Assembly (NCBI GenBank): GCA_018820205.1
Contig: JAHJOK010000033.1
Coordinates: 1-63,407 of the forward strand
Length of the DNA: 63,407 bases
DNA from: Alphaproteobacteria bacterium
GTDB lineage: Bacteria > Pseudomonadota > Alphaproteobacteria > Caulobacterales > Caulobacteraceae
Direction: 5' to 3'
Shown piece after piece: positions 17,507-45,274 of the stretch; position 1 is the stretch's first letter; each line of letters starts with the position of its first letter. The notes beneath the pieces are model-generated. The model saw nothing but the letters and a program-made list of their open reading frames with translations. It was not told the DNA's origin and searched no databases. The translations under genes and the position numbers were made by a program.

Positions 17507-17569
17507 GGTCGCCCTTTCCGGTTTCCTCTTGGGGTCGGGCGCGCGTCTGGCGGCGCGCCTCGGCCGAAC

Positions 17570-18787
17570 TCACCAGTCGTGCATCGTCCCGTCTTCGAGC
17601 CGGTTCACCGGCAGATAGGCGCGCGAATACGGGTGCTTCGCCGCCAGATCTTCGTCGATGTCCACGCCCAGGCCCGGCTCGTTTCCGGGATGCAGGGCGC
17701 CGTTCGCGAAACTGTAGGCATGGGGAAAGACGGCGTCGGTCTCGGTCGTGTGGCGCATGTATTCCTGGATGCCGAAGTTCGGAATCGACAGGTCGAAATG
17801 CAGGGCTGCCGCCATCGAGACCGGCGACAGGTCGGTCGCCCCGTGACAGCCGGTGCGCACCCCGTAGATGTCAGCCAGGGCCGCGATCCGCCTCAGGTGC
17901 GTGATCCCGCCCGCATGCACGACCGTGGCGCGGATATAGTCGATCAGCCGCTCCTCGATCAGCTGTTTGCAGTCCCACAGGGTGTTGAAGATCTCGCCGA
18001 CGGCCAACGGCGTTGTCGTGTGCTGGCGGATCAGGCGGAAGGCGGACTGATCCTCGGCCGGGGTGGCGTCCTCCAGCCAGAACGGGCGATAGGGCTCCAG
18101 ATCCTTGCCCAGCCGCCCGGCCTCGATCGGCGTCAGCCGGTGATGGATGTCGTGCAGCAGATGCACGTCCCAGCCCAGTTCCTCTCGCGCCGCCTTGAAC
18201 AGCGGTTCGACCGAGCGAAGGTATTTCTCCGTGGACCAAAGGTTCTCGGTCGGCAGGTCGGCATCGGCCGGCTCGTAGAATCCGAACGTCTTGGACACGC
18301 CATAGGTCGAGGCCAGACCCGGCACGCCCGACTGCAACCGGATGGCCTTGTAGCCCAGGTCGCGATAGCGCCGAGCCTCGGCCACTGTCTCGTCGATAGT
18401 TGTGCCGTTGGCATGGCCGTACACCAGGACGTCGTCGCGGCACGCCCCGCCCAGCAACTGATACAATGGCAGTCCCGCGGCCTTGGCCTTGATGTCCCAC
18501 AGCGCCATGTCCACAGCCGCGATAGCCGACATCCCGACCGGACCGCGCCGCCAGTAGGCGCCCTTGTAAAGGTACTGCCAGGTATCCTCGATGCGGTGGG
18601 CGTCACGACCGATCAGCAGCGGCACGACGTGGTCGGTCAGATAGCTGGCGACCGACAGTTCGCGCCCGTTCAGGGTCGCGTCGCCGACGCCGGTCAGCCC
18701 GTCCTCGGTCTCGATCTTCAGGGTGACGAAATTCCGCCCGGGACACGTCACGATCACCCGCGCGCTGCGGATCTTCAAGGGCGCCAC
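17570..18787 (-). CDS. manD: D-mannonate dehydratase (ManD type, enolase superfamily)
   Basis: 405 residues. The MLE-like enolase-superfamily N-domain ([19 protein letters not shown]) is followed by a barrel with [20 protein letters not shown] and C-terminal active-site segments ([12 protein letters not shown] and the end [11 protein letters not shown]). The C-terminal segment matches RspA/ManD-type mannonate dehydratases, including Caulobacter ones (from memory). It converts D-mannonate to 2-keto-3-deoxygluconate in the glucuronate pathway. It is first in a three-gene operon and divergent from GH67, with a LacI-type palindrome between them. Other glucuronate-pathway enzymes (uronate isomerase, fructuronate reductase, KDG kinase) are not in the window. 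Confidence 0.88.
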
Positions 18788-18852
18788 CGGTCTCCTCCCT
18801 GCGACGCTGTGCGTCGTCCCTACGGCTTGGTCTGTCGCCAGGCTCGTGTAAT

Positions 18853-18866
18853 GATAGCGCTACCAG
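18853..18866. promoter_or_regulatory. LacI-type operator TGATAGCGCTACCA between manD and GH67
   Basis: 14-bp near-palindrome centred on AGCGCT, 66 bases from the manD start and 79 bases from the GH67 start. The identical 14-mer occurs at 54443-54456, and close variants at 36430-36443 and 51917-51930. It can serve both divergent promoters. Confidence 0.75.
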
Positions 18867-18945
18867 AATGCAGCCGCCTTCGCTTGTCAACGGCGAAGGG
18901 CGTTTGAACAGCGAGAACCCGCCAACGGGTCAGTGGAGGAAGACG

Positions 18946-21111
18946 ATGACGAATCCAGCCTTGGCCGTGCGGATGCTCGCCCTCGCTGCGGCCTTGATCG
19001 GCACACTGGCCGGCGCTCCTGTAAGGGCCGAGGACGGCCATGATCTGTGGCTGCGCTATCGACCGCTCGCGCCTGCACAACAGCAGGCCGCGAGTCCATT
19101 GGGCCGGTCACTCGCGCCCCAGGGCGACAGTCCGACGATCCGGCTCGTGACTGCGGAACTGGCGCGCGGATTGGGAGGTCTGCTGGAGCGCGCGCCGGAC
19201 ATCGCGACGACGCCGCAGCCGGGCGCGATTGTCTATGGCGCGGCGGCTTCCCCCTCGATTGCCGCGCTCGACCTGCCGCTCTCCGATCTCGGCGAGGAAG
19301 GCTATCTCATACGCAGCCTGGATATCGACGGCGACGCCGTCACTGTGATCGCCGCCAACACCGATGTCGGCGTGCTCTACGGCGCCTTCGCCTTGCTACG
19401 CGTGGCCCAGACAGGTCAATCGCTCGCTGATATCGACATCGCCTCGGCGCCGACGGTGAAGCTGCGCGTCCTCAATCACTGGGACAATCTGGATCGCCAT
19501 GTGGAGCGCGGCTATGCGGGTCAGTCGATCTGGGACTGGCATCGGCTGCCCGGCTATACGCCGCAACTGTATGCCGACTATGCCCGCGCCAACGCCTCCA
19601 TCGGCATCAACGGAACGGTGCTGAACAACGTCAACGCCAATGCCCAGATCCTGACCGCGCCCTATCTTGAGAAAGTCGCGGCGCTGGCCGACGTGTTCCG
19701 CCCCTATGGCATCAAGGTCTATCTGTCGGCCCGGTTCAGCGCACCCATCGAGATCGGTGGACTGGACACCGCCGACCCGCTGGACCCCGCCGTCGCCGCC
19801 TGGTGGAAGGCGAAGGCCGACGAAATCTATGCCGCCGTGCCCGACTTTGGCGGCTTTCTGGTCAAGGCCAACTCCGAAGGTCAGCCGGGCCCCCAGGACT
19901 ATGACCGCACCCACGCCGACGGGGCCAACATGCTGGCCGACGCGGTGGCCCCGCACGGCGGCGTCGTGATGTGGCGCGCCTTCGTCTATTCGGCCGAGGA
20001 CGAGACCGACCGCGCCAAACAGGCCTATGCGGAGTTCGTCCCGCTGGACGGCCAGTTCCGCGATAATGTCATTGTCCAGGTCAAGAACGGCGCGATCGAC
20101 TTCCAGCCGCGCGAACCCTTCCATCCGCTGTTCGGCGCCATGCCGCAGACGCCGCTGATGATGGAGTTCCAGATCACCAAGGAATACCTGGGGTTCGCGA
20201 CCCACCTCGGCTATCTCGGTCCGCTGTACGAAGAGGTGCTGCAAGCCGGCACCTGGCGGCCCGGCGAGGGCGCGACCGTGGCCCGCGTCGTCGAAGGCGC
20301 CCTCGACGGCCACGCCCTGACCGGCATGGCGGGCGTCGCCAATATCGGTTCGGACCGCAACTGGTCGGGCAGTCATTTCGATCAGGCCAACTGGTATGTC
20401 TTCGGCCGCATGGCCTGGAACCCCGAGGCCGCCCGCGCCCGGCCGATCGCCGAGGAATGGGCCCGGATGACCTTCTCCAACGACGAACGTTTCGTCACGT
20501 CCGCGGTCGGGATGATGATGGAATCGCGTGAGGCCGTGGTCGATTACATGACGCCGCTGGGCCTGCATCACCTGATGGCGACGGGGCACCACTATGGTCC
20601 CGGGCCCTGGGTGTCGGACCTCGCCCGGCCCGAGTGGAACCCGACCTACTATCATCAGGCCGACCGGGACGGCATCGGCTTTGACCGCACGGCGACCGGC
20701 AGCAAGGCGGTGGATCAATACGCCCCCGAGGTCGCCGCCCGCTTCGCCGATCTGGCGACCGTGCCCGAGGCCGACCTGTTGTGGTTCCATCATGTCCCGT
20801 GGGAGCACCGGATGCGCTCCGGCCGCACCCTGTGGCGGGAACTGGCGGTTCACTATGACCGGGGGGTCGCGACCGTCGGCGACATGCGCACGACCTGGTC
20901 TGGCCTGTCGAACTACGTCGATGCCGAACGGTTCGCCGAGGTGTCCGAGATGCTGGCGATCCAGCAGGACGAGGCCCGCTGGTGGCGCGACGCCAGCCTG
21001 GCCTATTTCAGCGACGTGTCCGGCCGCCCCCTGCCCGAGGGCGTCGCACCGCCCGCCCGGTCACTGGCTGAATACGAGGCGATGTCCTTCCCCCTCGCCC
21101 CCGGCAACTAG
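18946..21111 (+). CDS. GH67 alpha-glucuronidase
   Basis: 721 residues with a Sec signal peptide (MTNPALAVRMLALAAALIGTLAG...). The (beta/alpha)8 centre contains the expected acids: Glu in FLVKANSEGQPGP, Asp in VKNGAIDFQPREP and Glu in MMEFQITKEYLG. Length and signatures fit family 67, which removes 4-O-methyl-glucuronic acid from the end of xylo-oligosaccharides. ATG 18946 is chosen because GGAGGA lies 5 bases upstream and the signal peptide then begins correctly. The end overlaps the GH10 stop by 4 bases (CTAG). Genetic partners are manD and the hexuronate transporter across the divergent promoter. Confidence 0.93.
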   Translation: MTNPALAVRMLALAAALIGTLAGAPVRAEDGHDLWLRYRPLAPAQQQAASPLGRSLAPQGDSPTIRLVTAELARGLGGLLERAPDIATTPQPGAIVYGAAASPSIAALDLPLSDLGEEGYLIRSLDIDGDAVTVIAANTDVGVLYGAFALLRVAQTGQSLADIDIASAPTVKLRVLNHWDNLDRHVERGYAGQSIWDWHRLPGYTPQLYADYARANASIGINGTVLNNVNANAQILTAPYLEKVAALADVFRPYGIKVYLSARFSAPIEIGGLDTADPLDPAVAAWWKAKADEIYAAVPDFGGFLVKANSEGQPGPQDYDRTHADGANMLADAVAPHGGVVMWRAFVYSAEDETDRAKQAYAEFVPLDGQFRDNVIVQVKNGAIDFQPREPFHPLFGAMPQTPLMMEFQITKEYLGFATHLGYLGPLYEEVLQAGTWRPGEGATVARVVEGALDGHALTGMAGVANIGSDRNWSGSHFDQANWYVFGRMAWNPEAARARPIAEEWARMTFSNDERFVTSAVGMMMESREAVVDYMTPLGLHHLMATGHHYGPGPWVSDLARPEWNPTYYHQADRDGIGFDRTATGSKAVDQYAPEVAARFADLATVPEADLLWFHHVPWEHRMRSGRTLWRELAVHYDRGVATVGDMRTTWSGLSNYVDAERFAEVSEMLAIQQDEARWWRDASLAYFSDVSGRPLPEGVAPPARSLAEYEAMSFPLAPGN

Positions 21112-31776: not shown

Positions 31777-33282
31777 TCAGGCGGCGCAGTGCTCGCTGAT
31801 GAAGGCGGCGTGCAACGGCATGTAGTCGGCTGAGTTCCGGATCGCCTCGGCGGTCTGGATCAGCCGACGTCGCGTCTCCTCAATCGTCAGAACGTCGGCG
31901 ACAGGATCATAGGCCGCCGGCCTGATGTTCTGGCCGATCATCACGGCGAACCAGCTGGTGTCGTTGAACAGTTCCTCGTTCTCGCGGAACACCCGTCCCC
32001 GGCTGCGGAAGATCTCGTATTTTTCCAACAGGCTGTCGGGCAGCGGCATCGACCGGACATGACGCCACAGGTCGGAGTCGTCGCGCTGGGTGGCGTTATA
32101 GTGCAGCACGATGAAGTCGCGGATTCGCTCGGCTTCATAGGCGACGACCCGGTTGTAACGGTCCGTCTCGGCGAGCTGGAAATCCTTCGTCGGGAACAGG
32201 GCCAGAAGGTTGGCGATGCCGCTCTGGACCATGTGGATGCTGGTGGATTCAAGCGGTTCGATGAAGCCTGACGCCAGGCCCAAGGCGACGACATTCTTGT
32301 TCCAGGCCTTGCGCCTGCGCCCCGTGACGAAGCGCAGCGTCCTGGGTTCGGCCAGGGCCTTGCCGTCCAGCTGGCCCAGCAGGTCTTCGGTCGCTGCCGC
32401 ATCGTCGATGAACCGGCTGGAAAAGACATAGCCGTTGCCGGTCCGGTGCTGCAGCGGGATGCGCCACTGCCAGCCGCCGGGACGCGCGGTCGATCGCGTG
32501 TAGGGAACCGGATCGCCGACCTTTTCGCACGGCACGGCCACGGCCCGGTCGCACGGCAGCCAGTTCGACCAGTCCTCATATCCAGTCTTCAGCGCTCCTT
32601 CGATCAACAGCCCCCGGAACCCCGAGCAGTCCACGAACAGGTCGGCCTCGACCTCCCGCCCGTCTTCCAGCGTCACCGATTCCACGAAGCCGTCTGCGGC
32701 GCGCAGGGTCACATCGACGATCTTCCCCTCCATCCGCACGACGCCCTTCGCCTCGGAATACTCGCGGAGGTATTTCGCATACAGGCCCGCGTCGAAATGG
32801 AAGGCGTAGGCGATCTTGGAGAGAGGCGAGCGCCCGGCGTCGATCGGGCGCATGAATTTGCCGCCGTCCGCCGCCTTGGCCTGCAGCGAGTAATCCGTGA
32901 TCGGCGCGGGGTCGCCTGACTGGTTCAACCTCAGCCAGAAGGCGTGAAACGAGACCCCTTCCATGTCGACGCCGAACGGCCCGAACGGATGAAAATAGGT
33001 GTCACCAATCCGGCCCCAGTCGCGAAACTGGATGCCCAGTTTGAACGTCCCCTGGGTCCGGCGGATGAACTCATCCTCGTCCAGGCCCAGCATGGTGTTG
33101 AAGGTGCGAAGCTGGGGGATGGTTGCCTCCCCCACCCCCACGGTTCCGATCTCCTCGGATTCGATCAGGGTGATTTCGGCGTACTGGGGGCCCAGAATCT
33201 TCGCCAGCGCCGCAGCCGTCATCCATCCGGCGGTTCCGCCGCCGACGATGGCGATCCTGCGTATACGGTTGTCCGAAGTCAT
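31777..33282 (-). CDS. tryptophan halogenase-like flavoprotein (third gene of operon)
   Basis: 501 residues of the PrnA/RebH-like FAD-dependent halogenase family. The FAD motif GGGTAGWM (from residue 14), GVGEATIP (49-56), the lysine expected to carry the haloamine (K81 in GTFKLGIQF), the W-x-W-x-I-P signature WQWRIP (271-276) and the Glu/Ser pair in [10 protein letters not shown] (E345-S346) are all present. It therefore looks catalytically competent. It overlaps the preceding halogenase gene by 4 bases. The substrate is unknown; no flavin reductase, needed for activity, lies in the window. Confidence 0.88.
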
Positions 33283-34754
33283 GATTTCTTGAAAGCCTTC
33301 GTCTGTGCGGCCAGCGCCTCGGCGTGGGCGGGCATGGCGTCGGCCGCCTTTGCGATCACCGTCCGCATCCGATCCAGTCGTTCGCGAACCTGGTCCAGTG
33401 TGAGTTGATCAGCGGACGGGTGATAGCGCTGCGGCACGATATTCTGACCCATGAAGACCGCGATCCAGCTCGGCTCCTCGAACGTCTCTTCATCATACAG
33501 AACCACCCGGCCCCGGCTGGCGAACATGCGGATCTTGTGCGCCAGTTCGTCTGGGGGCGCGGTGTTTCGAACCGCATCCCACAACGGCTCGCCCGTCCGT
33601 CCGTTCGCGCGATAATGCAGGATCAACAGGTCGCGCAGCCGGTCGGCCTCGGCCGCCATCAGTCGGTTGTATTCAGCCGCGCTCGCCGCCATCGACCCGC
33701 CCGCCGGAAACAGGCCGATCAGTTTCGAGACCCCGCTCTGCACCAGATGCAGGCCGGACGCCTCGAGTGGCTCCAGCGTCGTGGCCGACAGACCGATGGC
33801 GATGCAGTTGCCGATCCAGCTCCGCGACCGACGCCCGTTCGAAAACGCCAGTCCCGCCTTGTCGCCGCCAAAGCCCGTCGCCGAAATCCGCGCCGACCTG
33901 GTCCCGCTCCGGAGCGGCGCCTTCCACAGCCAGCCGCCCCGCACGGCTCTGGCCTCCGACACCGGCGCGCCGACGGGGCCCGTCGTCATCGAGGCCGCGA
34001 TCCGGTCGCATGGCAGCCAGCGGGAATAGTCGACCCGCTCCCCGCCCATCAAACTTATGATCGCCCCCGCCTGCCCGGTCGCGTCGATGAACAGATCGCC
34101 GTCGAACCGCCGGCCGTCGTCCGAGACCACCGCCGCCAGACTTTCTCCGTCCGAACGCCGCTCCACATCAACCACCGTCGCTACGATCCCCTCCACACCT
34201 CGCGCCAGGGCCGCTGATTTCAGCGCCGCGACATAGGGCGCGACCTCCAGATGAAGGCCGTAGGACATCGTGGAGGCGACAGAACGGGGATCATCCGACG
34301 GCCGGCTGAACCGACCTTTCCGCGCTGCGACGGCGGCCAGTGAGAAATCCTCGAACGGAGTAACCTTGCCCGCCGCTTTCAGCCGCAGCCAGTAGTGATG
34401 AAAGCCCGTCCCCTCCATCACCCCGCCGAATTCGCTGAACGGATGGATGTAGTCGTGATCGCGGCGGGTCCAGTCCCGGAAGTTTGTGCCCAACCGGAAC
34501 GTCGCGTTCGTCCCCGCCATCAGCCTGTCTTCGTCCAGGCCGAGAGATGTGTTGAAAGAATTCAACGAAGGCAGCGTCGCCTCGAACGGCGCCAGCACGC
34601 CCGTATCGCCGACCTCCTTCGCATCCTCCAGCACCCGGATCGACAGCCGCTGGCCGAAAGCTCGCGACAGGGCCGCCGCCGTCATCCAGCCGGCCGATCC
34701 GCCGCCGACGATCACGACCGACCGGGGCGCCGAGGGATCGCCGGGCCCGCTCAC
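33279..34754 (-). CDS. tryptophan halogenase-like flavoprotein, degenerate (second gene of operon)
   Basis: 491 residues, clearly homologous to its neighbours along its whole length ([39 protein letters not shown]). However, the catalytic lysine position is Arg (R87 in ATFRLGTNF), GVGEATIP is replaced by [10 protein letters not shown], the W-x-W-x-I-P signature reads WLWKAP (275-280), and EPLEST reads EPLEAS. FAD binding may persist but normal halogenation is doubtful. Four-base overlaps on both sides keep it tightly coupled to two intact paralogues, suggesting a retained structural or altered catalytic role. The frame is open, so it is not a pseudogene. Confidence 0.85.
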
Positions 34755-36265
34755 GCCCGACCATCCGCCGCACAGCAGGCCCGCACGAAGGCGTCGTGCG
34801 TCGGCATGGCGGCCACATCCCTCTGGATCGCCATGCGCATCGTCTCCATCGCCTCGGCCAACGCGCGTTCAGGCGCACGATCGCTGAGCGGGTCATAGCC
34901 GGCCGGCTCGATCCGCTGCCCGAAATAGACTGCCAGCCAGCTGGGTTCCAGAAACAGACCGTCGCGGTATCGCGCCACCACGCCCCGCTCCTTGAACAGG
35001 GCCATCTTTGCGGCAAGGCTGTCGGGCACGGTCATGGTGCGACAGTGATTCCAGAACGGCGTGTCGTCCCGCTCGGTCGCCTTGTAATGCAGCACCAGAA
35101 AATCGCGGATCCGGTCGTACTCCAGGTCCATGATCCGGTTGAACTCGCCGGCGTCGGCGGGATCGAAGCCGGCGTCCGGGAACAACTCGATCAGATTGGT
35201 GATCGCTGCTTGAATCAAGTGGATGCTGGTCGATTCCAGCGGTTCCAGAAATCCGCTCGACAAACCGATGGCGACGCAGTTGCGCGTCCACTGGCGCCGC
35301 CGTTTTCCGGTCGTGAACCGCAAGAGGCGAGGCTCGGCGCGCGCCGGCCCCTCCAGCCGTCCCATCACCCGCGCCACCGCCTCATCATCCGACAGGAAGG
35401 CGCTGGAATAGACATAGCCGTTGCCGACGCGGTGTTGCAGAGGAATGCGCCACGACCAGCCGGCCTCCAGCGCCGTGGCGCGCGTATAGGGCGTGGAGGC
35501 CTCGACCGTGTCGCACGGCACGGCCACCGCCCGGTCGCACGGCAGCCATTCGGTCCAGTCGTCATAGCCGACCTGAAGAGCGCCCCCGATCAACAGCCCC
35601 CGGAAGCCGGAGCAGTCGATGAAAAGGTCTCCCTCCAGCCGCTCGCCGCGTTCCAGAACCACCGCCCTGACGTTTCCGTTTTCGGGGTCCAGCTCGACGT
35701 TCGCGACCTTGCCCTCGGTTCGAACCACGCCCCGTGCCTCGGCGTGTTCGCGCAGGTATGCGGCATAAAGTCCCGCATCGAACTGAAACGCATAGGAGAA
35801 GGTCGACAAAAGCGATCGCGGGTCATCCGACGGTCGGTCGAATCGGCCCATTCGAGCCGCCACGATCGGCAGGGAGTAGTCGTGTATATCCGCCGCTGCT
35901 CCCGCCCGGCGCATCCTCAGCCAGTGGTGGTGAAAGCCGACCCGATCCATCGAACGGCCATAGGCGCCGAAGGGATGGATGTAGGAATCGCCCAGCCGGG
36001 CCCAGTCGCGAAACTCGATCCCCAGTTTGAACGTCGCCTGCGTCCGCGCCATGAAGACGTTCTCGTCCAGACCCAGTCGTTCATTGAAGCTGCGGATGTG
36101 TGGAATGGTCGCCTCGCCGACGCCGACCGTGCCGATTTCCTCGGATTCGACCAGGCGGATGCTCAGCCCCGGCCGCTTCAACAGCGTGGCCAGGGCGGCG
36201 GCCGTCATCCATCCCGCCGTTCCCCCGCCGACGATGATAATGCGTTCTAAAACTGCCGCCGCCAT
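34751..36265 (-). CDS. tryptophan halogenase-like flavoprotein (first gene of operon)
   Basis: 504 residues from ATG 36265, chosen because the FAD motif then starts near residue 10 ([13 protein letters not shown]) and GGGAG lies upstream; a longer in-frame start exists at 36316. Intact signatures: GVGEATIP, K80 in ATFKLGIEF, WSWRIP, and [10 protein letters not shown]. It heads a three-gene operon divergent from the TonB-dependent receptor, with an AGCGCT-containing site just upstream. From memory, this clade from Brevundimonas and Xanthomonas brominates free indole weakly in vitro; the native substrate is unresolved. Confidence 0.88.
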   Translation of the reverse strand: MAAAVLERIIIVGGGTAGWMTAAALATLLKRPGLSIRLVESEEIGTVGVGEATIPHIRSFNERLGLDENVFMARTQATFKLGIEFRDWARLGDSYIHPFGAYGRSMDRVGFHHHWLRMRRAGAAADIHDYSLPIVAARMGRFDRPSDDPRSLLSTFSYAFQFDAGLYAAYLREHAEARGVVRTEGKVANVELDPENGNVRAVVLERGERLEGDLFIDCSGFRGLLIGGALQVGYDDWTEWLPCDRAVAVPCDTVEASTPYTRATALEAGWSWRIPLQHRVGNGYVYSSAFLSDDEAVARVMGRLEGPARAEPRLLRFTTGKRRRQWTRNCVAIGLSSGFLEPLESTSIHLIQAAITNLIELFPDAGFDPADAGEFNRIMDLEYDRIRDFLVLHYKATERDDTPFWNHCRTMTVPDSLAAKMALFKERGVVARYRDGLFLEPSWLAVYFGQRIEPAGYDPLSDRAPERALAEAMETMRMAIQRDVAAMPTHDAFVRACCAADGRA

Positions 36266-36268
36266 TGT

Positions 36269-36282
36269 CGTTAGCGCTCCCA
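36269..36282. promoter_or_regulatory. weak AGCGCT-type operator upstream of halogenase operon
   Basis: CGTTAGCGCTCCCA matches the TGATAGCGCTACCA motif at 11 of 14 positions and lies 3 bases before the halogenase ATG at 36265, in the 212-base spacer shared with the TonB receptor. Confidence 0.4.
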
Positions 36283-36379
36283 ATCCGGATTGAATGATCA
36301 TGGGTTGGCCCGCCATTGCAAGAGCAGCGGAATATGTTGCGTTGCAGCAAAATCAGGCGCTTACCGCCTTTGTTGTGGC

Positions 36380-36392
36380 ATTACTCAGACAC
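36380..36392. promoter_or_regulatory. GntR-type operator-like site in the halogenase/TonB spacer
   Basis: ATTACTCAGACAC reads GTGTCTGAGTAAT on the other strand, matching the site before the xylonate dehydratase gene (55312) apart from the first bases. It is near the middle of the divergent spacer and could serve both directions. Confidence 0.5.
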
Positions 36393-36429
36393 TTGAAGGC
36401 CGCAAACTCTTGGGGTATGTCTTGGGTAA

Positions 36430-36443
36430 TGGTAGCGTTACCA
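36430..36443. promoter_or_regulatory. LacI-type operator TGGTAGCGTTACCA upstream of the TonB receptor
   Basis: 14-bp palindrome with perfect TGGTA/TACCA arms, 34 bases before the receptor GTG. It fits an operator overlapping the promoter or early transcript. It has the same layout as sites at 18853, 51917 and 54443. Confidence 0.75.
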
Positions 36444-36477
36444 AGACGCTACACAATAACACCTGGGGAGGAACTAC

Positions 36478-39400
36478 GTGCGCCATATCATCTCTACAAT
36501 TGCGCCTGATCACCGAAACAAGTTGGGGCTGATCCGGTGCGGCGTGTCCGCGCTGGCCATCGCATCGGTCATGGCGGCAGCGCCTGCGCTGGCCCAGTCG
36601 CAACCGACGCCTCAGGAAGACGACGACGCGACCGAGGTCGAGGAAATCATCGTCACCGGTATTCGCGGGAGCCTGCAGAGCGCCCAGAACATCAAGCGCA
36701 ACGCCGAAGTGTTCGTTGACTCGATTTCCGCCCAGGACATCGGCGCCCTTCCCGACCGGTCGGTGACCGAGGCCCTGCAGCGCGTGCCCGGCGTGTCGAT
36801 CGACCGCTTCGCCGCCGGCGTGGACCCCGATCACTTCTCGGTGGAGGGTTCCGGCGTCGTCGTGCGCGGCCTGACCTTCGTCCGTTCTGAATTCAATGGC
36901 CGCGACGCCTTCACCGCCAACAACGGCCGTGCGCTCGGGTTCGCCGACGTGCCGTCCGAACTGCTGGCAGGCGTCGATGTGTTCAAGAACCAGTCGGCCG
37001 ATCTGATCGAAGGCGGCATCGCCGGCACGGTCAACCTGCGGACCCGCGTTCCGTTCGATCAGGCGGGCGACCTGCTCTCGGCCTCGGTCGAAGCCAGCTA
37101 CGGCGACTTCGCCGAGGAATGGAGCCCGACCTATTCGGTCCTGGGCAGCAAACGCTGGGACACCGAGATCGGTGAGTTCGGCCTGCTGGCCAACTTCGTC
37201 GATTCCCAACTCAAGTCGCGTGGCGACGGCCAGCAGATCTCGAACTTCTCGCTACGGTCGGACCTCGGCCCGACGCCGGTCTATTTCCCTCGCGGCGCGT
37301 CGTTCCGCTCGCAGGAGTTCGACCGGGGCCGCACCGGATATGCGGCGGCCGGCCAATGGCGCAGCCCCGATCGCACCATGATCGCCACGGCCCAGTTCCT
37401 GCGCTCCGAAGCGACGCAGGCTTGGACCGAACATGCGGTAGAGATTGCGACCGACAACGTCACGTCGAACGGCGATTCCCGCCCTGTCCTGGGCACGACC
37501 TTCGACTTCGGCGACGACGGCGTCTTCACCAACGGCACCATCACCGGCCCGACCGGTTGGCGTGACGACTCCGCAGGCGGACGTGAGAACCGGAACCCCG
37601 CCTTCGGTCTGCAGAGCAACAACCAGCGACGCGACGTCTATTCGGAAAACATCACCACCGATTACGGCTTCAACTTCAAATGGACGCCGACCGATCGGTT
37701 GAAGTTCAACTTCGACATCCAGCGCGTGGAATCCACGGTCGAAAACCTCGACGCCACTCTGTGGGCCTCCACCTATCAGAACGCCTCCATCCAGCTGCGC
37801 GGCGACGACGTGCCGCTGGTGACCTTTCTGCCGCCGTCGGAAAACGGCGTGGTGGTCCAGTGCCCGACGGATGGGACGGACGGCGCAGACTGCCCGCGCT
37901 ACTACAACTCGCCGAACGACAATTTCAGCAATCCGTTCAACAGCTTCGTCCGCAACAACATGGACCATGCCGAGGACAGCGAGGGCGAGCTGACCGCAGT
38001 TCGGCTGGACGGGGAATATACCTTCGACGAGGATAGCTGGCTGGAATCGGTCCGCTTCGGCTATCGCCGTGCGGAACGGGAGCAGACCACACGCTTCTCG
38101 CAGTACAACTGGGGCGTCATCAGCGAACAGTGGGGCGGCGGCGGCCCGGTCTGGCTGACCGACTCCGCCGACGGCGTGCCCGAAGCCAACGGCCTGCCGG
38201 GCACGGCCGGAACCCTGGTCGGTTCGATGTTCGAGACCTTCGCCTTCGACAATTTCTTCCGCGGCGACGTTCCCGTTCCCACCGGCGACCAACCCCGCCT
38301 GTTCTATAACCAGAATATCGTCGAGAACTACGACGCCTACTCTGCTTTCGGCCTTCAGGTCGGCGACGAATGGCGGGCCAGGCTGCTGGATGGGTGTCCG
38401 CAGAACTGGGTGCCTCTGGCGCTGCGCTGCGATGTCGTTCCCGGCACGATGTACCGGCTGAACGAGATCAACCCCGTCGACGAACAGAGCGACGCCTTCT
38501 ACGGCATGCTCCGTTATGCGGGCGAAACCGCCAACGGCGTCAGGCTCAGCGGCAATATCGGACTGCGCTACACGACGACAGACCGTCAGGCCGGCGGGTA
38601 CATCGCCTTCCCGCGCGTCGCCTTCAGCACCGAGGATCAGTGCGCGAACGTGCCGCCCGGCGAGACCGCGACGGCGTTCTGCCGCCTGGTGTCCCCGGCT
38701 GATCGGGCCGCCGCGCGCGCCTTCGCCAACGGCGCCATCACCGAGGACAACAAGGAGACGACGTTCGACTACCTCCTGCCCAGCTTCAACCTTCGGGCGG
38801 AGATCGACGGCGGCAAGGTCTTCCGCTTCGGCTATTCCAAGGCCATCACGCCGCCAGACATCGGCCTGACGCGCAATTTCTTCAACGTGAATCTGTCGGG
38901 CAACGAGCTCGATATCGTCAACGGGCGGCCCACAGGCCGGTTCGCGGTCGGCAATCCGTTGCTCAAGCCGATCCAGGCGGACAGCTTCGACGCCTCGTTT
39001 GAGTGGTACTACGGCAATCCGGGGTCGTTCACGGTCTCGCTGTTCTACAAGACCCTGACCGACGTGATCACCAACGGCACCCAGCGTCAGGCCTTCACCA
39101 ACAACGGCGCCACCTTCGACGCCGTGGTCACCACGCCTGTGAACTCGGATGAGGAGGCGACGGTCAAGGGCTTCGAGGTGGCCTGGCAAGCCCTGCTCGA
39201 CGACTACCTGCCTGAACCGTTCGCCGGTTTCGGCTTCAACGCCAACTACACCTACATCGACTCCGAGGGCGTGCCGCAAAGCACCCTGTCCAACACCGAC
39301 CCGGACGTGGCCGCCGGTCGTGTCGCCAATATCGACACCAGCCTGCTGCCGCTGCAGAACCTGTCGGAACACACGGTCAATCTGGCCGGCTTCTATGAAA

Positions 39401-39690
39401 AAGGCCCGCTGGCGCTTCGTCTGGCCTACGCTTGGCGCTCCGAGTTCCTGATCACGCCGCGTGACGTCATCGTCCCGTTCGCGCCGATCATGAACGAGGC
39501 GACCGGCCAGCTCGACGGGTCGGCCTTCTACTCTGTGACCGACAACATCAAGGTCGGTGTCCAGGCGGTCAATCTCACCAATGAGATCACCCGCACGTCC
39601 CAGGTTCTGAACAACGATCTCCTGCGTACGGGACGTTCCTGGTTCGTCAACGACCGGCGCTTCACCTTCATCGTCCGCGCCACTTTCTAA
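36478..39690 (+). CDS. TonB-dependent receptor, probable xylo-oligosaccharide importer
   Basis: 1070 residues: signal peptide (to ALAQSQ), a TonB-box/linker region (VEEIIVTGIRGSLQSA, typical of carbohydrate-linked receptors of Caulobacterales and Xanthomonadales), a plug domain (DRSVTEALQRVPGVSIDR to about 215) and a 22-strand barrel ending in the aromatic residue of FTFIVRATF. GTG 36478 is supported by GGAGGA 6 bases upstream. It lies in the outer membrane and takes up ligands using TonB energy. The xylan enzymes around it and the shared operator motifs point to xylo- or aldourono-oligosaccharides. A strong terminator follows. Confidence 0.93.
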   Translation: MRHIISTIAPDHRNKLGLIRCGVSALAIASVMAAAPALAQSQPTPQEDDDATEVEEIIVTGIRGSLQSAQNIKRNAEVFVDSISAQDIGALPDRSVTEALQRVPGVSIDRFAAGVDPDHFSVEGSGVVVRGLTFVRSEFNGRDAFTANNGRALGFADVPSELLAGVDVFKNQSADLIEGGIAGTVNLRTRVPFDQAGDLLSASVEASYGDFAEEWSPTYSVLGSKRWDTEIGEFGLLANFVDSQLKSRGDGQQISNFSLRSDLGPTPVYFPRGASFRSQEFDRGRTGYAAAGQWRSPDRTMIATAQFLRSEATQAWTEHAVEIATDNVTSNGDSRPVLGTTFDFGDDGVFTNGTITGPTGWRDDSAGGRENRNPAFGLQSNNQRRDVYSENITTDYGFNFKWTPTDRLKFNFDIQRVESTVENLDATLWASTYQNASIQLRGDDVPLVTFLPPSENGVVVQCPTDGTDGADCPRYYNSPNDNFSNPFNSFVRNNMDHAEDSEGELTAVRLDGEYTFDEDSWLESVRFGYRRAEREQTTRFSQYNWGVISEQWGGGGPVWLTDSADGVPEANGLPGTAGTLVGSMFETFAFDNFFRGDVPVPTGDQPRLFYNQNIVENYDAYSAFGLQVGDEWRARLLDGCPQNWVPLALRCDVVPGTMYRLNEINPVDEQSDAFYGMLRYAGETANGVRLSGNIGLRYTTTDRQAGGYIAFPRVAFSTEDQCANVPPGETATAFCRLVSPADRAAARAFANGAITEDNKETTFDYLLPSFNLRAEIDGGKVFRFGYSKAITPPDIGLTRNFFNVNLSGNELDIVNGRPTGRFAVGNPLLKPIQADSFDASFEWYYGNPGSFTVSLFYKTLTDVITNGTQRQAFTNNGATFDAVVTTPVNSDEEATVKGFEVAWQALLDDYLPEPFAGFGFNANYTYIDSEGVPQSTLSNTDPDVAAGRVANIDTSLLPLQNLSEHTVNLAGFYEKGPLALRLAYAWRSEFLITPRDVIVPFAPIMNEATGQLDGSAFYSVTDNIKVGVQAVNLTNEITRTSQVLNNDLLRTGRSWFVNDRRFTFIVRATF

Positions 39691-39712
39691 CCATCTCCTG
39701 ACGACCAACTCA

Positions 39713-39749
39713 GGCCCCGACGGTTCGCCCGTCGGGGCCTTTTCCTTTA
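39713..39749 (+). terminator. intrinsic terminator after the TonB receptor
   Basis: An 11-bp perfect stem (39713-39723 / 39729-39739) with loop TTCGC is followed by TTTTCCTTTA. It should end most receptor transcripts, so the next gene either relies on read-through or has its own promoter. Confidence 0.9.
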
Positions 39750-39760
39750 TTGCGTTGCGT

Positions 39761-40792
39761 ATGACCTCAACCCGAACATCCAGCCTGCCGGCGCCCGGAG
39801 CCATCGCTGTCAGAGAGGCGACCGACCGCCAGACCTTCGAGCGTGATATCGTGCCCGCCTATGAGCCTGTCGTGATGAAGGGCCAGGTCGCCGACTGGCC
39901 GATCGTTGATGCGGCGCGTGACGGCGACGCGACGCTCGTCGCCCTGTTGAAGGCCGGCGCGACCGATCGGCCGCTTGAGACTTTCGTCGGCGCGCCCGAA
40001 ATCCAGGGCCGGTTCTTTTATAATGAGGCCGTCAACGGCCTGAATTTCGAGCGGCGCCCCGTGCCGTTGCGCGCGACGCTGGATCGACTGATGACCCAGC
40101 GCGACGATGCGGCCGCCGCGCTCTATGTCGGCGCGGCGGCCGCGACCGACTGCATGCCGGGGTTCGAGGCTGCCCATGTCCTCGGCCTGGTCGATCCGCG
40201 CGTCCTGCCGCGTCTGTGGATCGGCAACGCCTCGACCGTCTCCACCCACTACGATCTCTCCGACAATCTCGCCTGTGTCGTGGCCGGACGCCGCCGCTTC
40301 ACCCTGTTCCCGCCCGACCAGTTGAAGAACCTCTACGTCGGCCCGCTGGACTTCACCCTGGCCGGCCAACCCGTCAGCATGGTCGATCTGCGCGCGCCGG
40401 ACCTGGAGCGTTTCCCACGCTTCGCCGAGGCCATGGACCATGCCGTCACAGCCGAACTCGAGCCCGGTGACGTTCTCTACATCCCGCCGCTGTGGTGGCA
40501 TCAGGTGGAGGCTTTGTCGCCGCTGAACCTGCTGGTGAACTACTGGTGGAACGCGGCCGGAGCCCCGCCCTCCCCGTTCGAGGCGCTGGTTCATTCGGTC
40601 ATGACCGTTCGCCACCTGCCCCCGGCCCAGCGCGAGGCCTGGCGCAATCTGTTCGATCACTATGTGTTCGAGACCGACGGCGATCCGGCCGCCCACCTGC
40701 CGCCCGCCAGCCGGGGCGTGCTGGGGCCGATGACGCCCACCTTGGCCAAACGCATCCGTGACTTCCTGACGGCGGGCCTGCGTCGGAACTAG
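39761..40792 (+). CDS. JmjC/cupin_8-type Fe(II)/2-oxoglutarate-dependent oxygenase-like protein
   Basis: 343 residues from ATG 39761 (a TTG two codons upstream is also open). The double-stranded beta-helix carries H163-x-D165 in STHYDLSDNL and the distal H247 in IPPLWWHQVEAL, the facial triad of JmjC-type hydroxylases such as FIH-like enzymes. VVAGRRRFTLFPPDQ precedes a likely co-substrate region. Family members hydroxylate protein side chains or arginine residues; the target here is unknown. It directly follows the TonB receptor terminator and converges with the DUF6445-like gene (4-base overlap). Such cupin genes recur near TonB receptors and Trp halogenases in related bacteria (recalled, not checked). 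Confidence 0.85.
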   Translation: MTSTRTSSLPAPGAIAVREATDRQTFERDIVPAYEPVVMKGQVADWPIVDAARDGDATLVALLKAGATDRPLETFVGAPEIQGRFFYNEAVNGLNFERRPVPLRATLDRLMTQRDDAAAALYVGAAAATDCMPGFEAAHVLGLVDPRVLPRLWIGNASTVSTHYDLSDNLACVVAGRRRFTLFPPDQLKNLYVGPLDFTLAGQPVSMVDLRAPDLERFPRFAEAMDHAVTAELEPGDVLYIPPLWWHQVEALSPLNLLVNYWWNAAGAPPSPFEALVHSVMTVRHLPPAQREAWRNLFDHYVFETDGDPAAHLPPASRGVLGPMTPTLAKRIRDFLTAGLRRN

Positions 40793-41502
40793 GCGGTCGC
40801 TCGATAGGTCAGAAAGATGTTGGCGGTCAGCCGCCCCCGGCGCGGGTCCGCCGACAGGGAGGCCGGGTCCGGGATATGGCCCGAATGCAGGACCCGGCTG
40901 CGGTAGACGATAACCCGGTTGAAGGCGGCCTGGACCAGCCGCGTCCGCACGAACTGCGGCGTGTCCCCGTCGATAAAGGCCGGAGGCGGCGGCTCACGCT
41001 CCAGCTCCGCATCCAGCGCCGACTGGTAGGCCTCCAGCCGGTCCGGCGTCAGAGTCTCGAACCCCGTCGTCCGATGGCGATAGAAGGCCGTGCCGCCCAG
41101 ACGCGGGTCGCACAGATAATGCAGTATGGCGAACTGCAGCGGATCGACCGTGTCGACATGCGGGATCCGCTGCGCCAGGTTCAGCTCTCCCGGCGCCAAG
41201 GTCGCCAGCGAGAAATTACAGGTCGCCCGCCCAAGCGCGACGTCCTCCAGCCCAAAGCCTTTCCGGATCAGTGGGTCCAGCGCCCTCGCCAGACCGCCGA
41301 CATACTCCAGCGGCGCCGGGGCCAGCCGGCCGGGATAGAAATTCTCGCCCGCCGTCGCCTGGCTGAACGTCGCATCTCCGGCCGCGATTTCGACAAGGGC
41401 GGCCGGGTCCGGCAGCGCGTCATCCACGGTCAGAAGCGGCTCGCCCTCATTGCCGAGCCGCTCCAGCTGCGCGCGTTCGGCAAGATCGACCGGCGGGATC
41501 AT
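40789..41502 (-). CDS. DUF6445-like protein, putative non-haem iron oxygenase fold
   Basis: About 237 residues. IPHVDTVDPLQFAILHYL (H115-x-D117) and, near the end, RVIVYRSRVLHSG (H206) followed by RGRLTANIFLTY give the order H-x-D...H...R of 2-oxoglutarate/Fe(II) dioxygenases. From memory the family is DUF6445, often found with Trp halogenases and TonB receptors. No function is established. ATG 41502 is chosen because it lies 8 bases after the preceding stop with AGGGG upstream; an in-frame ATG at 41535 would overlap the deacetylase gene. Confidence 0.7.
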   Translation of the reverse strand: MIPPVDLAERAQLERLGNEGEPLLTVDDALPDPAALVEIAAGDATFSQATAGENFYPGRLAPAPLEYVGGLARALDPLIRKGFGLEDVALGRATCNFSLATLAPGELNLAQRIPHVDTVDPLQFAILHYLCDPRLGGTAFYRHRTTGFETLTPDRLEAYQSALDAELEREPPPPAFIDGDTPQFVRTRLVQAAFNRVIVYRSRVLHSGHIPDPASLSADPRRGRLTANIFLTYRATA

Positions 41503-41509
41503 CACGCCC

Positions 41510-42412
41510 CTAGGTGCACAGGGCGGCCAATTCATTCAACACGTCGGCCCGTTCCGGCACGGCGATCCCGGCGGCCCGCGCTTCATTCTCCAGCGTCAGC
41601 GGCGCGGCCGTGTCAGCAGCCTCGCGGTCAGTCTCGTAGAAGGGGTCGGACATCGCCGCTTCCAGCGACACGAAGGTGACGCCCCTCGCCTGATACAGCT
41701 CCAGCAATCGCGGCATCATCCGGGCGTCGAACGCCCCCGCATGCATCAGCAGCACATAGGGAATGTCGCGGCCGTAGAGGCGATCGGACAGCGCACGCGA
41801 CGCGGCCAACGCCTCGTCGGCCCCGGCCAGAAACAGGGTCTCCATCCGCGCCACCGCCGCCGCATCGCCTGTCTTGCGGCAGCGCTCATAGGTGTTGTTG
41901 TAGGCCCAGTCGCTGAAATCCATGGTCACGCTGGCGACCTTGTAGCCGTGCTCGCGCAGAACCTCTCGCCCCGCCCGACGAACGGCCGGATCGCGACCTT
42001 CGGCCAGGAACGGATAGCGGAACCAGCGCCAGTCCGAGCCGTCCGCCATGGCCTCAAGCACCGGCTCGTTCCTGACCAGTTCGGCCTCGAACGCCTCGGC
42101 GCCGATTTCATCCAGATTGGCGTGGGCCCAGCCGTGGTTGCCCAGCTGATGGCCCGCATCCCGCCAGATCTCCAGCACCGCGCGATCGGCCGGCTCCTCC
42201 TCCAGTCGGCTGGCATTGACGAAGCCCATCGCGGGAACGGCGCCCGCATCGGCCAAGGCCGCGACAAGCCGTCCGATCACGCCGATCCGCGTCTCGCCCG
42301 GCGGCAGCGGCGCATGCGCCGGCAGGTCGTCGAACGTCAGCGCCACCTCCTGCGCTGTCGCGGGGACAGCGAACGCCAGAACCGACAGGGCGCCGATCAG
42401 GGTCTTGCGCAT
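41510..42412 (-). CDS. polysaccharide deacetylase (NodB/CE4-type), exported
   Basis: 300 residues: signal peptide (MRKTLIGALSVLAFAVPATA), then the NodB fold with the metal/catalytic motif VALTFDDLPAHAP and the H-x-x-x-H motif in LGNHGWAHANLDE, followed by RWFRYPFL. A divalent-metal N- or O-deacetylase. In this locus an acetyl-xylan esterase role is plausible, but peptidoglycan or chitin deacetylation cannot be excluded. ATG 42412 has GGAGG 5 bases upstream and overlaps the stop of the SGNH gene by one base, indicating coupling. Confidence 0.85.
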   Translation of the reverse strand: MRKTLIGALSVLAFAVPATAQEVALTFDDLPAHAPLPPGETRIGVIGRLVAALADAGAVPAMGFVNASRLEEEPADRAVLEIWRDAGHQLGNHGWAHANLDEIGAEAFEAELVRNEPVLEAMADGSDWRWFRYPFLAEGRDPAVRRAGREVLREHGYKVASVTMDFSDWAYNNTYERCRKTGDAAAVARMETLFLAGADEALAASRALSDRLYGRDIPYVLLMHAGAFDARMMPRLLELYQARGVTFVSLEAAMSDPFYETDREAADTAAPLTLENEARAAGIAVPERADVLNELAALCT

Positions 42413-43653
42413 CACGGCCTCCGCTCGAAAAGGCTCAACGGCACGGCGTCGCCCATGGCGCGATAGCCGTCCATGGAGGGATGCAGCCCGTCGTTATCCA
42501 GATCGGCCTTCAGATGGTCAGGCCGCGCAGGATCGCGCAGGATCGCGTCGAAATCGATCACCGCGTCGAAATTTCCAGGCGTTCGGATCCAGGCGTTCAC
42601 CGCCTGACGATCCGCCTCGGTCTCCGGCCCCGGGTGATAGTAGGCCGAGCCTGCGAACGGCATGATTGTCGCTCCTATGGCCATCACGCCCCGGTCGCGC
42701 GCGCTCTGCACGATCTGCGCATAGGACTGGATCATGTCGCGCACGATCGCCGCATGGGCCTCGGGGCTGGCGGGCCCATCGCGGGTCAGAACGCCCAGGT
42801 CGTTGACCCCTTCCAACACCACGACATGGGTCACCCCCGACTGGGCCAGGACGTCGCGGTCGAACCGCGCCGCCGCATTGGGCCCCAGCCCGTCCAGCAA
42901 CATCCGGTTGCCGCCGATGCCCAGGTTCAGAACCGCCGCATTCTTCAGCCCCGGCGTCTCCCGAAGCCGCTCGGCCAGCCGGTCGGTCCAGCGGAGATTG
43001 GTGTCCGGCTCAACGCCGTATCCATCAGTGATCGAGTCACCGAACAGGGCGATCACGGCCGGCGCCTGCCCCTCCACATCGACCGCCGCGAGCAAATACC
43101 AGCGCACCACGGCATCCGCATCATTCAGAACGTCCGCCGCGACCCGGTCGCCGACGACGACAAAGGTCGTGGTCCTCGATCCTGGATGTCCAGTCCGTTC
43201 GGCCGGCAGCTCGGCGACGTGCAGACTGATCGCCAGATCAACCCCGGCCTCGACCCTCATCGCCACCGGATCGGACAGGTATTCCGCCCCCGGCGGCACC
43301 GACACCTCGGCCTGTCCGCCGAAGCGCAGCGGCCGGCCGGAACCGGGCACGACCGTCGACTGCCCGGGCGCAACGGCCAGCGCCACCTGTCCGCCTGCGA
43401 TCCTCAATGGCGTGCGTCCGAACCGGTTGGAGACCCGCACCCGCACGCGGTCTCCGCCCCCCGACAGGCGTAAAATCTGACGCAGGGTCACGTCTTCGGT
43501 CACCGTCAGGGCATTGTCGCCCTCGGCGATCATCTGCGCGGAGGCCCAGCTGGCCTTCCATCGCGTCCCTGCGTCCTGTGCCGCCACGGGTCCCGCAAAC
43601 ACCAGCGCCGAAGCGATCAGAACTCTCAGCAGAACGCGACCGAAACCTGTCAT
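42412..43653 (-). CDS. SGNH/GDSL-family esterase, exported; candidate acetylxylan esterase
   Basis: 413 residues: signal peptide (to PVAAQDA), an N-terminal beta-domain (about 30-200) and a C-terminal SGNH hydrolase domain with block I IALFGDSITDGYG, block III LEGVNDLGVL and block V DGLHPSMDGY (catalytic Asp and His). It resembles rhamnogalacturonan or acetyl-xylan esterases. With the downstream deacetylase it could remove acetyl groups from xylan. It is divergent from the fourth halogenase gene. Confidence 0.85.
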   Translation of the reverse strand: MTGFGRVLLRVLIASALVFAGPVAAQDAGTRWKASWASAQMIAEGDNALTVTEDVTLRQILRLSGGGDRVRVRVSNRFGRTPLRIAGGQVALAVAPGQSTVVPGSGRPLRFGGQAEVSVPPGAEYLSDPVAMRVEAGVDLAISLHVAELPAERTGHPGSRTTTFVVVGDRVAADVLNDADAVVRWYLLAAVDVEGQAPAVIALFGDSITDGYGVEPDTNLRWTDRLAERLRETPGLKNAAVLNLGIGGNRMLLDGLGPNAAARFDRDVLAQSGVTHVVVLEGVNDLGVLTRDGPASPEAHAAIVRDMIQSYAQIVQSARDRGVMAIGATIMPFAGSAYYHPGPETEADRQAVNAWIRTPGNFDAVIDFDAILRDPARPDHLKADLDNDGLHPSMDGYRAMGDAVPLSLFERRP

Positions 43654-43741
43654 ACAAACACCTCGAAGCCAGGCCGAACGCTAGCGCCGCACGGTTGAGA
43701 TGGCGAGCGGATTTGGCCTTTTGTCAGACTTTTCACCGGCT

Positions 43742-45274
43742 ATGGTTGGCATGATGCAGACACCCGGCTCCCCTTCCCCCCACACCCTTCGCCATGTGCT
43801 GGTCGTTGGCGGCGGCACGGCAGGCTGGATGGCGGCGGCGGCCCTGTCGCGCCTGATCAGCAATGGCGTGACCCGCGTCTCGGTCGTCGAATCCGAGGAC
43901 ATCGGCACGGTCGGCGTGGGCGAGGCGACCATCCCCCCGATCCAGAGCTTCAACGGCCTGCTCGGCATCGATGAAGCCGACTTCATGCGCGCGACCCAGG
44001 CCACGTTCAAACTGGGCATCGAGTTCGCCGACTGGGGCCAGATCGGCGATCGCTATATGCATCCGTTCGGCGGCTTCGGCGTCGATATGGAGGCCGTCCA
44101 GTTTCATCAGCACTGGCTGCGTCGCCGGGCCGGGGGCGATCCGACCTCCCTGTGGGACTACAGCCTCAGCACCGTGGCCGCCCACGCCGGACGCTTCGTC
44201 AAGCCCGGCAGGGACGCTCCATCGGCCTTGCAGACGTTGAAATACGCCTATCATTTCGATGCCGGCCTCTACGCCGCCTATTTGCGCCGCCATGCGGAAT
44301 CGAAGGGGGTGGTCCGTCACGAGGGCCGCATCGTCGATGTCGCCCTGCGCCCCGCCGATGGTTTCGTCGACGCCGTCACCCTGGACGACGGCCGCCGCAT
44401 CGAGGCCGACCTGTTCATCGACTGCTCGGGCTTTCGCGGCCTGATCATCGAACAGGCTCTGGGCGCCGGCTACGAGGACTGGTCCCACTGGCTGCCCTGC
44501 GACCGGGCGCTGGCCGTTCCGACCGCCAGCGCCGGGCCGCTGAGCCCCTACACCCGCGCCACGGCGGGCAGCGCAGGGTGGCGCTGGCGCATCCCGTTGC
44601 AGCACAGAACCGGCAACGGTCATGTCTATTGCAGCAGCCATATCTCCGACCACGACGCCCATGCCGAGTTGATGACGGGACTGGATGCCGAGCCCCTCGC
44701 CGACCCCCGTCCCTTGCGGTTCGTCACCGGCCGTCGAAAATCTCAGTGGGTCAGGAACTGCGTCTCGCTGGGCCTGTCGTCGGGGTTTCTGGAGCCGCTG
44801 GAATCGACCTCGATCCACATGATCCAGTCGGGGGTGTCCAAGCTGATGACGATGTTCCCGGACGACCGTTTCGACCCGCATCTGATCGCCGAATACAACC
44901 GCCTGTCACAGCTGCAGTTCGAACAGATCCGCGACTTCATCATCGCGCATTACAAGGCCACCCGCCGCGACGACACGCCATTCTGGCGTCAGGTCCGCGA
45001 CATGGAGATCCCCGAAACCCTGTCGCGCAAGATCGACCTGTTCCGCGCCACCGGCCGCCTGTTTCGATACGAGGACGAACTGTTCAGCGAAGCCAGCTGG
45101 ATCGCCGTCCTGCTGGGTCAGGGTATCATCCCCAACGCCTACGAACCCCTCGCCGACGCCGTCGACCGGCCCCTAGCTGACCGCCGCATGGACGCCATCG
45201 CTAAGGTTATCCGCGACATCGCCGCCGACATGCCGGAGCATGAGGCGTTTATCGCGCGGTATTGTCGGGCCTAA
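43742..45274 (+). CDS. tryptophan halogenase-like flavoprotein (fourth copy)
   Basis: About 510 residues with the complete signature set: [21 protein letters not shown]90 in ATFKLGIEF, WRWRIP, and [13 protein letters not shown]. It is more like the first and third halogenases than the degenerate second. Start uncertain: ATGs at 43700, 43742, 43751 and 43754 are in frame without a clear ribosome site. It is not in the halogenase operon but divergent from the SGNH/deacetylase pair and overlapping the aldose epimerase stop by 4 bases. Substrate unknown. Confidence 0.85.
   Translation: MVGMMQTPGSPSPHTLRHVLVVGGGTAGWMAAAALSRLISNGVTRVSVVESEDIGTVGVGEATIPPIQSFNGLLGIDEADFMRATQATFKLGIEFADWGQIGDRYMHPFGGFGVDMEAVQFHQHWLRRRAGGDPTSLWDYSLSTVAAHAGRFVKPGRDAPSALQTLKYAYHFDAGLYAAYLRRHAESKGVVRHEGRIVDVALRPADGFVDAVTLDDGRRIEADLFIDCSGFRGLIIEQALGAGYEDWSHWLPCDRALAVPTASAGPLSPYTRATAGSAGWRWRIPLQHRTGNGHVYCSSHISDHDAHAELMTGLDAEPLADPRPLRFVTGRRKSQWVRNCVSLGLSSGFLEPLESTSIHMIQSGVSKLMTMFPDDRFDPHLIAEYNRLSQLQFEQIRDFIIAHYKATRRDDTPFWRQVRDMEIPETLSRKIDLFRATGRLFRYEDELFSEASWIAVLLGQGIIPNAYEPLADAVDRPLADRRMDAIAKVIRDIAADMPEHEAFIARYCRA

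Follow-up and report, generated by a model that had tools for sequence, protein, structure and literature searches.

A TonB receptor, three predicted active flavin-dependent halogenases, a halogenase paralogue predicted to be catalytically dead and two putative hydroxylases form a real, conserved receptor-linked halogenase/hydroxylase module. It is described here from a 63,407-nucleotide stretch of a Brevundimonas-like Caulobacteraceae genome (assembly GCA_018820205.1, contig JAHJOK010000033.1, positions 1 to 63,407), which as a whole is called the window. The grouping of halogenases with receptors is not due to chance. The reading that we tentatively favor, at somewhat less than an even chance, is that the enzymes modify side chains of the TonB receptor polypeptide in the cytoplasm before export.

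Open reading frames (ORFs) and Pfam/TIGRFAM matches confirm the gene layout given in a preliminary description of this DNA, namely a three-gene halogenase run, a receptor, a JmjC protein, a DUF6445 protein and a fourth halogenase. The run is a single minus-strand unit with 4-bp overlaps in the order HAL3 (paralogue A, 34751-36316, 661.4 bits), HAL2 (paralogue B, 33279-34754, 415.7 bits) and HAL1 (paralogue D, 31777-33282, 670.7 bits). HAL4 (paralogue C, 43700-45274, plus strand, 678.1 bits) lies apart from it, and all four proteins match PF04820 (cut-off 21 bits). HAL3, the first gene of the run, diverges from the receptor gene (36478-39690, plus strand, 1070 aa). The receptor belongs to TIGR01782 (681 bits, curated cut-off 310), contains the PF00593 barrel and the PF07715 plug, and has an N-terminus that, judged by eye, resembles a signal peptide. 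The 161-bp region between the two genes (36317-36477) is a probable shared promoter, and a 126-bp aligned stretch that starts within it (36379-36504) is 85% identical to the related locus L228. Behind the receptor, the JmjC/Cupin_8 gene (39755-40792, plus strand; Cupin_8 227.9 bits, with a JmjC_2 match as well) overlaps tail to tail with the DUF6445 gene (40789-41535, minus strand; 260 bits in Pfam). According to Pfam, a polysaccharide deacetylase and a GDSL hydrolase gene separate DUF6445 from HAL4. The intergenic gaps of the module measure 5, 161, 64, and 46 bp, and the remaining gene pairs overlap.

The linkage of halogenases to receptors was counted in a search of 150 Pseudomonadota genomes. 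PF04820 was found at E 1e-90 or better in 14 of them, including the genome of the window; the count covers the 13 others, with receptors defined by TIGR01782 at E 1e-90 or better and expected numbers given by a Poisson estimate from rounded genome sizes. In these genomes, a receptor is no more than 5 kb away from 39 of 48 halogenases (1.3 expected), or from 29 of 34 halogenase sites (0.99 expected), and 30 of the 78 receptors have a halogenase within this distance. The window's own genome follows the pattern, as seven of its eight PF04820 genes are no more than 5 kb away from a receptor, and these receptors are three of the seven above the TIGR01782 cut-off. DUF6445 was approached from the other side. 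A scan of named genomes yielded 109 relatives, of which the best 80 were kept; the count covers the 64 that have 8 kb of sequence to either side. Within 8 kb, these 64 loci contain a halogenase in 57 cases, a TonB-type receptor in 52, both in 49 and Cupin_8 in 21, where some of the profiles used were built from those very loci. Four of the loci (L028, L047, L080, L081) have neither a halogenase nor a receptor nor HlyC, and the other 60 have one or more of them. By the terms of the preliminary description, a lack of co-occurrence of these families with TonB receptors beyond chance would have refuted its reading; these counts, and the receptor orthologues described below, did not refute it.

HAL1, HAL3, and HAL4 have the sequence hallmarks of flavin-dependent halogenases, with PF04820 scores above the cut-off and an intact set of motifs (GxGxxG, the catalytic lysine, WxWxIP, the catalytic glutamate and the halide-site ESTS). 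The best match in the Protein Data Bank (PDB) for all four HAL proteins is 6FRL, the structure of BrvH from Brevundimonas BAL3 (E-values of 2.1e-157 for HAL1, 4.6e-159 for HAL3 and 8.9e-167 for HAL4), and HAL1, HAL3, and HAL4 share with BrvH the lysine, the glutamate and the residues of the halide site. These three proteins are predicted to halogenate. The motif for flavin adenine dinucleotide (FAD) starts at residue 14 in HAL1, 17 in HAL2, 30 in HAL3 and 37 in HAL4, so that a signal peptide would hardly fit in front of it; this is consistent with a reaction in the cytoplasm. A tree built from 148 halogenases places the HAL proteins in four separate groups (support 99 for that of HAL1, 100 for that of the lysine-less HAL2, 99 for that of HAL3 and 85 for that of HAL4). 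Each group includes counterparts from runs of Sphingomonas and Phenylobacterium, whose gene order is A (HAL3), B (HAL2), C (HAL4) and D (HAL1), so that HAL4, separate in the window, corresponds to the third gene of the four-gene runs.

HAL2 is homologous to the family (415.7 bits) and carries an arginine in place of the catalytic lysine, and its WxWxIP motif reads WLWKAP. The four halogenases of the preliminary description are thus all PF04820 proteins, of which HAL2 is no ordinary halogenase and is predicted not to halogenate. The same arginine is found in the 20 best-ranked database proteins, HAL2 itself included. All 25 runs of at least three halogenase genes, the window among them, share one feature: the catalytic lysine is missing from the second gene and from no other. 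Outside Brevundimonas (23 runs), this gene also lacks the catalytic glutamate, which HAL2 and its counterpart at L022 retain. The lysine-less genes form one clade even when the active-site columns are removed (17 rows, support 99). In the tree of 148 halogenases, the lysine-less row L099, with a split, damaged reading frame, was not counted, and two lysine-less genes outside of runs (L035, L038) belong to the same clade. The possibility that HAL2 is a decaying pseudogene was rejected by the ratio of nonsynonymous to synonymous substitution rates (dN/dS), which is 0.21, 0.18, and 0.27 in three comparisons and indicates purifying selection; the HAL1 row of L226, at a contig end, is not an orthologue and was dropped. 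Since BrvH is dimeric and needs its lysine for activity, we infer that HAL2 is the dead subunit of a heterodimer. A halogenase operon common to Caulobacterales and Sphingomonadales in which a dead paralogue is kept in second place raises a new enzymological question.

The two remaining enzymes of the module are predicted 2-oxoglutarate (2OG)- and Fe(II)-dependent oxygenases. The best PDB sequence matches of the JmjC protein are FIH (E 3e-20) and JMJD5, and its HxD and distal histidine, the HxD...H signature of JmjC/Cupin_8 proteins, align with those of FIH; it is predicted to be a FIH-like 2OG-Fe(II) protein hydroxylase. It differs from FIH and JMJD5 in being bacterial and linked to an outer-membrane receptor. 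DUF6445 yields no match at E 1 or better in a PDB sequence search. Its predicted structure takes on the double-stranded β-helix fold of 2OG oxygenases with HxD...H and an arginine, which suggests a 2OG-Fe(II) oxygenase like the prolyl 4-hydroxylases (P4H). Its top fold matches in VIA-align act on proteins, with small-molecule enzymes within 2 to 3 Z.

Relatives of the window's receptor (E 1e-180 or better) occur in 17 of 131 genomes of the genus, with 18 matches. Of the 17 matches outside of the window's own genome, 12 were extended to stretches of 12 to 19 kb, some of which end at contig ends. At least two strong halogenases are present at 11 of these 12 loci, a Cupin_8 gene at nine and DUF6445 at two. 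The exception, L227 (G505:C1:3359001-3378000), is a second receptor copy that is accompanied by Cupin_8 and DUF6445 and, of the halogenases, by no more than two short fragments. The same genome has a complete set at L228, and L227 amounts to a natural deletion experiment. Receptors of at least 86% identity and HAL2 are found in the same five of the 131 genomes (Fisher p 3e-9, uncorrected for kinship). HAL2 at E 1e-150 is present in one of 99 genomes of a family sample, and DUF6445 in nine of the 131 genus genomes, four of them with HAL2. The distribution of the set is patchy, and, judged by sequence, its constant pair is the receptor with the predicted active halogenases.

At three loci, two of these enzyme families are associated with a different protein. 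In L060 (Sphingomonas parva; 2-14264), L063 (Roseovarius; 7855-20655) and L114 (7483-17998), a halogenase and DUF6445 have as neighbors a gene of the HlyC family and one for a large protein with RTX repeats, which measures at least 2370, 3094, and 2417 aa, respectively, with one weak repeat match in L114. L060 additionally encodes HlyD and an ABC exporter, and no TonB receptor was found within the three stretches. HlyC-type enzymes modify their RTX protein in the cytoplasm before export. HlyC resembles the activity proposed here as a cytosolic enzyme that acts on an exported protein before secretion and that is found with halogenase and DUF6445 at three loci; it differs in that it transfers an acyl group instead of a halogen and is not seen in the window module. 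A search for the HlyC of L114 in 240 Alphaproteobacteria at E 1e-15 gave no match in a set that included no genome known to carry it. Receptor loci and RTX loci carry the same enzyme families, and what they most simply have in common is an exported protein, which we infer to be the substrate.

Experimental work on related halogenases provides the chemical frame. BrvH (PDB 6FRL) is dimeric and is inactivated by the K83A exchange of lysine for alanine, it brominates free indole slowly, and a second halogenase gene adjoins brvH (PMC5945002). BrvH and three Xanthomonas halogenases brominate indoles and not free tryptophan (PMC5945002, PMC7336383), and one of the latter, Xcc4156, acts on indole and its derivatives (PMC7336383). 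Both BrvH and Xcc4156 have open active sites, for which the authors propose a peptide substrate while leaving the native substrates open (PMC5945002, PMC7336383). By word count, TonB is absent from these two papers (PMC5945002, PMC7336383), and the parts consulted contain no mention of JmjC or DUF6445 partners or of a lysine-less paralogue. By word search, a survey of halogenase genes likewise does not mention receptors in its main text (PMC8269204). The flavin halogenase MibH, which is 26% identical to Xcc4156 (PMC7336383), accepts tryptophan solely inside its cognate peptide (PMC5945002). It serves as a model of how the window enzymes might work, with tryptophan halogenated within a peptide. 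The substrate of MibH is a lantibiotic precursor, and it is in this respect that the systems differ, as no lantibiotic precursor gene was identified here. In a literature search that left most subscription papers outside, no paper ties the gene set together and none contains the word DUF6445. To our knowledge, halogenation of a bacterial outer-membrane protein has not been known before.

Under the reading that the receptor is modified, HAL1, HAL3, and HAL4 would use an open active site like that of BrvH to add a halogen, probably bromine, to exposed side chains of the indole or phenol type. The JmjC and DUF6445 proteins would hydroxylate side chains in the manner of FIH and P4H-type enzymes. 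HAL2 could act as a noncatalytic partner, for example as the heterodimer half that holds the unfolded receptor. The modification may adjust how the surface-exposed receptor binds its ligand, how it folds or how long it lasts, and in three relatives an RTX-repeat protein would take the receptor's place. Modification of the receptor is favored because the same enzyme families lie beside receptors with different glycan neighbors and beside RTX proteins, and because the enzymes most similar to the JmjC protein in sequence, and the one ranked first for DUF6445 by fold in VIA-align, act on proteins. Among the three substrates offered in the preliminary description (the receptor itself, a small exported peptide, an aromatic part of the imported ligand), the receptor fits best, given its varied glycan and peptidase neighbors and the three RTX loci in which no receptor was found. 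The fuller version, a dedicated system in which three active and one dead halogenase and two hydroxylases decorate the nascent TonB receptor, or an RTX-type surface protein in relatives, is a more doubtful proposition. If true, it would explain the native role of BrvH-type halogenases, for which structures have been solved; the tie to receptors supplies a concrete candidate for the native substrate. It would also mean that bacteria alter the chemistry of the receptors through which they take up nutrients, a side of outer-membrane biology not found in the literature searched.

Several results weigh against modification of the receptor. No target residue emerged when 74 halogenase-linked receptors were compared with 48 others, after exclusion of 17 duplicates, four receptors with an uncertain label and one of 34 stretches without a receptor over 200 bits. 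Eleven positions were tested (Trp986, Pro1003, Asp413, Arg142, Asn399, Asp364, Ser125, Phe990, Tyr984, Tyr844, Trp552). The raw enrichment is marked at Trp986 (78% of halogenase-linked versus 25% of other receptors) and Pro1003 (73% versus 15%). In 12 independent pairs, however, none of the positions is significant, in a test of low power because few pairs differ: Trp986 scores 0.6 in the same and 1.5 in the opposite direction, and the best position, Asp364, 3.0 and 0.2 (median p 0.25). The raw enrichments at Trp986, Pro1003, and the other positions were dropped as evidence. In the 13 genomes, a halogenase is missing from the 5-kb surroundings of 48 of 78 receptors, and five of 34 halogenase sites lack a TIGR01782 receptor within this distance, as does the halogenase on contig C58 of the window's own genome. 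Ten of the 12 orthologous stretches, some of them limited by contig ends, yielded no DUF6445, which hence is not obligatory; five of the nine genus genomes with DUF6445 lack HAL2, and many orthologous loci have neither DUF6445 nor a lysine-less gene. The fold comparison of DUF6445 also cuts both ways. Its protein-acting VIA-align matches are OGFOD1/Tpa1, PHD2, and bacterial P4H, and small-molecule oxygenases (PasI 13.1, SnoN/PolD 12.7) tie with the lower of these, P4H and PHD2; in Foldseek, the best rows by E-value are small-molecule oxygenases. Finally, multi-halogenase sets are found beside xylan genes in 17 of 25 cases versus two of 39 other halogenase loci. Xylan genes are present at three of 16 loci without a halogenase, and in a second survey at three of five multi-halogenase loci versus one of 27 others. 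This tie suits a ligand-specific as well as a receptor-specific role.

The main alternative, which appears unlikely, builds on the same tie, namely that cytoplasmic halogenation or hydroxylation prepares aromatic groups of imported glucuronoxylan oligosaccharides, such as ferulate or lignin stubs, for removal or catabolism. The genes associated with multi-halogenase sets are those of glycoside hydrolase (GH) families GH67 and GH10 and of esterases, and the window itself fits this picture. As the preliminary description stated, the module is embedded in xylan genes; they make up a glucuronoxylan region, with GH67, GH10, GH43, GH9, GH3, and glucuronyl-esterase-like genes, a sugar transporter, a lactonase-like gene and dehydrogenases. 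No aromatic catabolic gene, however, is found among the 22 of 48 called window genes whose proteins were scanned with Pfam. The genes for α-amylase, GH97, fucosidase, and peptidases that lie beside other receptor-halogenase pairs do not point to an aromatic ligand, and further halogenases are located beside RTX-repeat proteins and at the end of a Caulobacter operon presumably devoted to N-acetylglucosamine (GlcNAc). The variety of neighbors was recorded in 61 of 66 proteins next to receptor-halogenase pairs (five at or near locus ends were dropped); of another 78 listed, 51 were scanned, chosen by hand to reduce near-copies. In the 61 neighbors, among the 25 of 58 families listed, major facilitator superfamily transporters are the commonest with nine, followed by α-amylase with eight, GH3 with four, GH97 and GH10 with two each, and GH1, fucosidase, and the peptidases M13, M3, and DPPIV with one each. 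Since the neighboring enzyme families differ, a single ligand is not the common factor.

It is decidedly unlikely that the enzymes make or disarm a small, diffusible molecule similar to indole, or a peptide whose gene lies elsewhere, with uptake or signaling through the receptor. The slow bromination of free indole by BrvH and the action of Xcc4156 on indole and its derivatives speak for it, and TonB receptors can import peptides. For nonribosomal peptide synthetases and polyketide synthases, the absence of biosynthetic genes asserted in the preliminary description holds among the 22 window proteins scanned, and the RTX cases would be left unexplained. A peptide encoded by the module itself, such as the precursor in a cluster for a ribosomally synthesized and post-translationally modified peptide (RiPP), has little room, as the largest gap between its genes is the 161 bp in front of the receptor, which short candidate ORFs, the longest of 80 aa, span. 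It is more improbable still that the flavoproteins are monooxygenases or folding factors whose linkage reflects cotranscription with receptors for regulatory reasons. The purifying selection on HAL2, which lacks the catalytic lysine, would suit such a role, as would weak matches to the protein-modifying flavoprotein QhpG. These matches, however, score 24.7-36.6 bits, far below the cut-off of 240, just as LodB (21.8 versus 400) falls short of its own, and HAL1, HAL3, and HAL4 retain the catalytic and halide-site residues of BrvH, including the lysine whose exchange for alanine abolishes activity.

Halogenases, receptors and accessory genes are also found in other arrangements. Six Caulobacter loci (L054, L055, L061, L064, L070, L071) contain a halogenase of another clade, with the motifs FKQGIKF/FKQGIRF and WTWDIG. 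Together with DUF6445, it closes an operon that we take to resemble a GlcNAc phosphotransferase system. The halogenase on contig C58 of the window's own genome (L015:8535-11185) overlaps a gene that by eye is acyl-CoA-dehydrogenase-like. Its catalytic lysine and glutamate are present, its WxWxIP motif reads WQWRIA and no receptor is nearby; perhaps it is a halogenase relative in another role. On contig C20 of the same genome, a DUF6065 gene (L018:6649-7503) lies directly behind another TIGR01782 receptor without a halogenase, and DUF6065 is possibly a further receptor-linked accessory family. In sister modules, a SapC gene is inserted between the receptor and Cupin_8 (L016:12374-13099; L043:10748-11485). 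SapC has been linked to S-layer export in Campylobacter, and its fairly confident model (predicted local distance difference test score of 88) has no convincing match among solved folds. Adjoining the receptor-SapC-Cupin_8-halogenase operon of L016 on contig C79 is an 869-aa ORF (L016:7097-9706) in which a glucokinase domain is fused to the PAS, HisKA, HATPase, and response-regulator domains of a hybrid sensor kinase.

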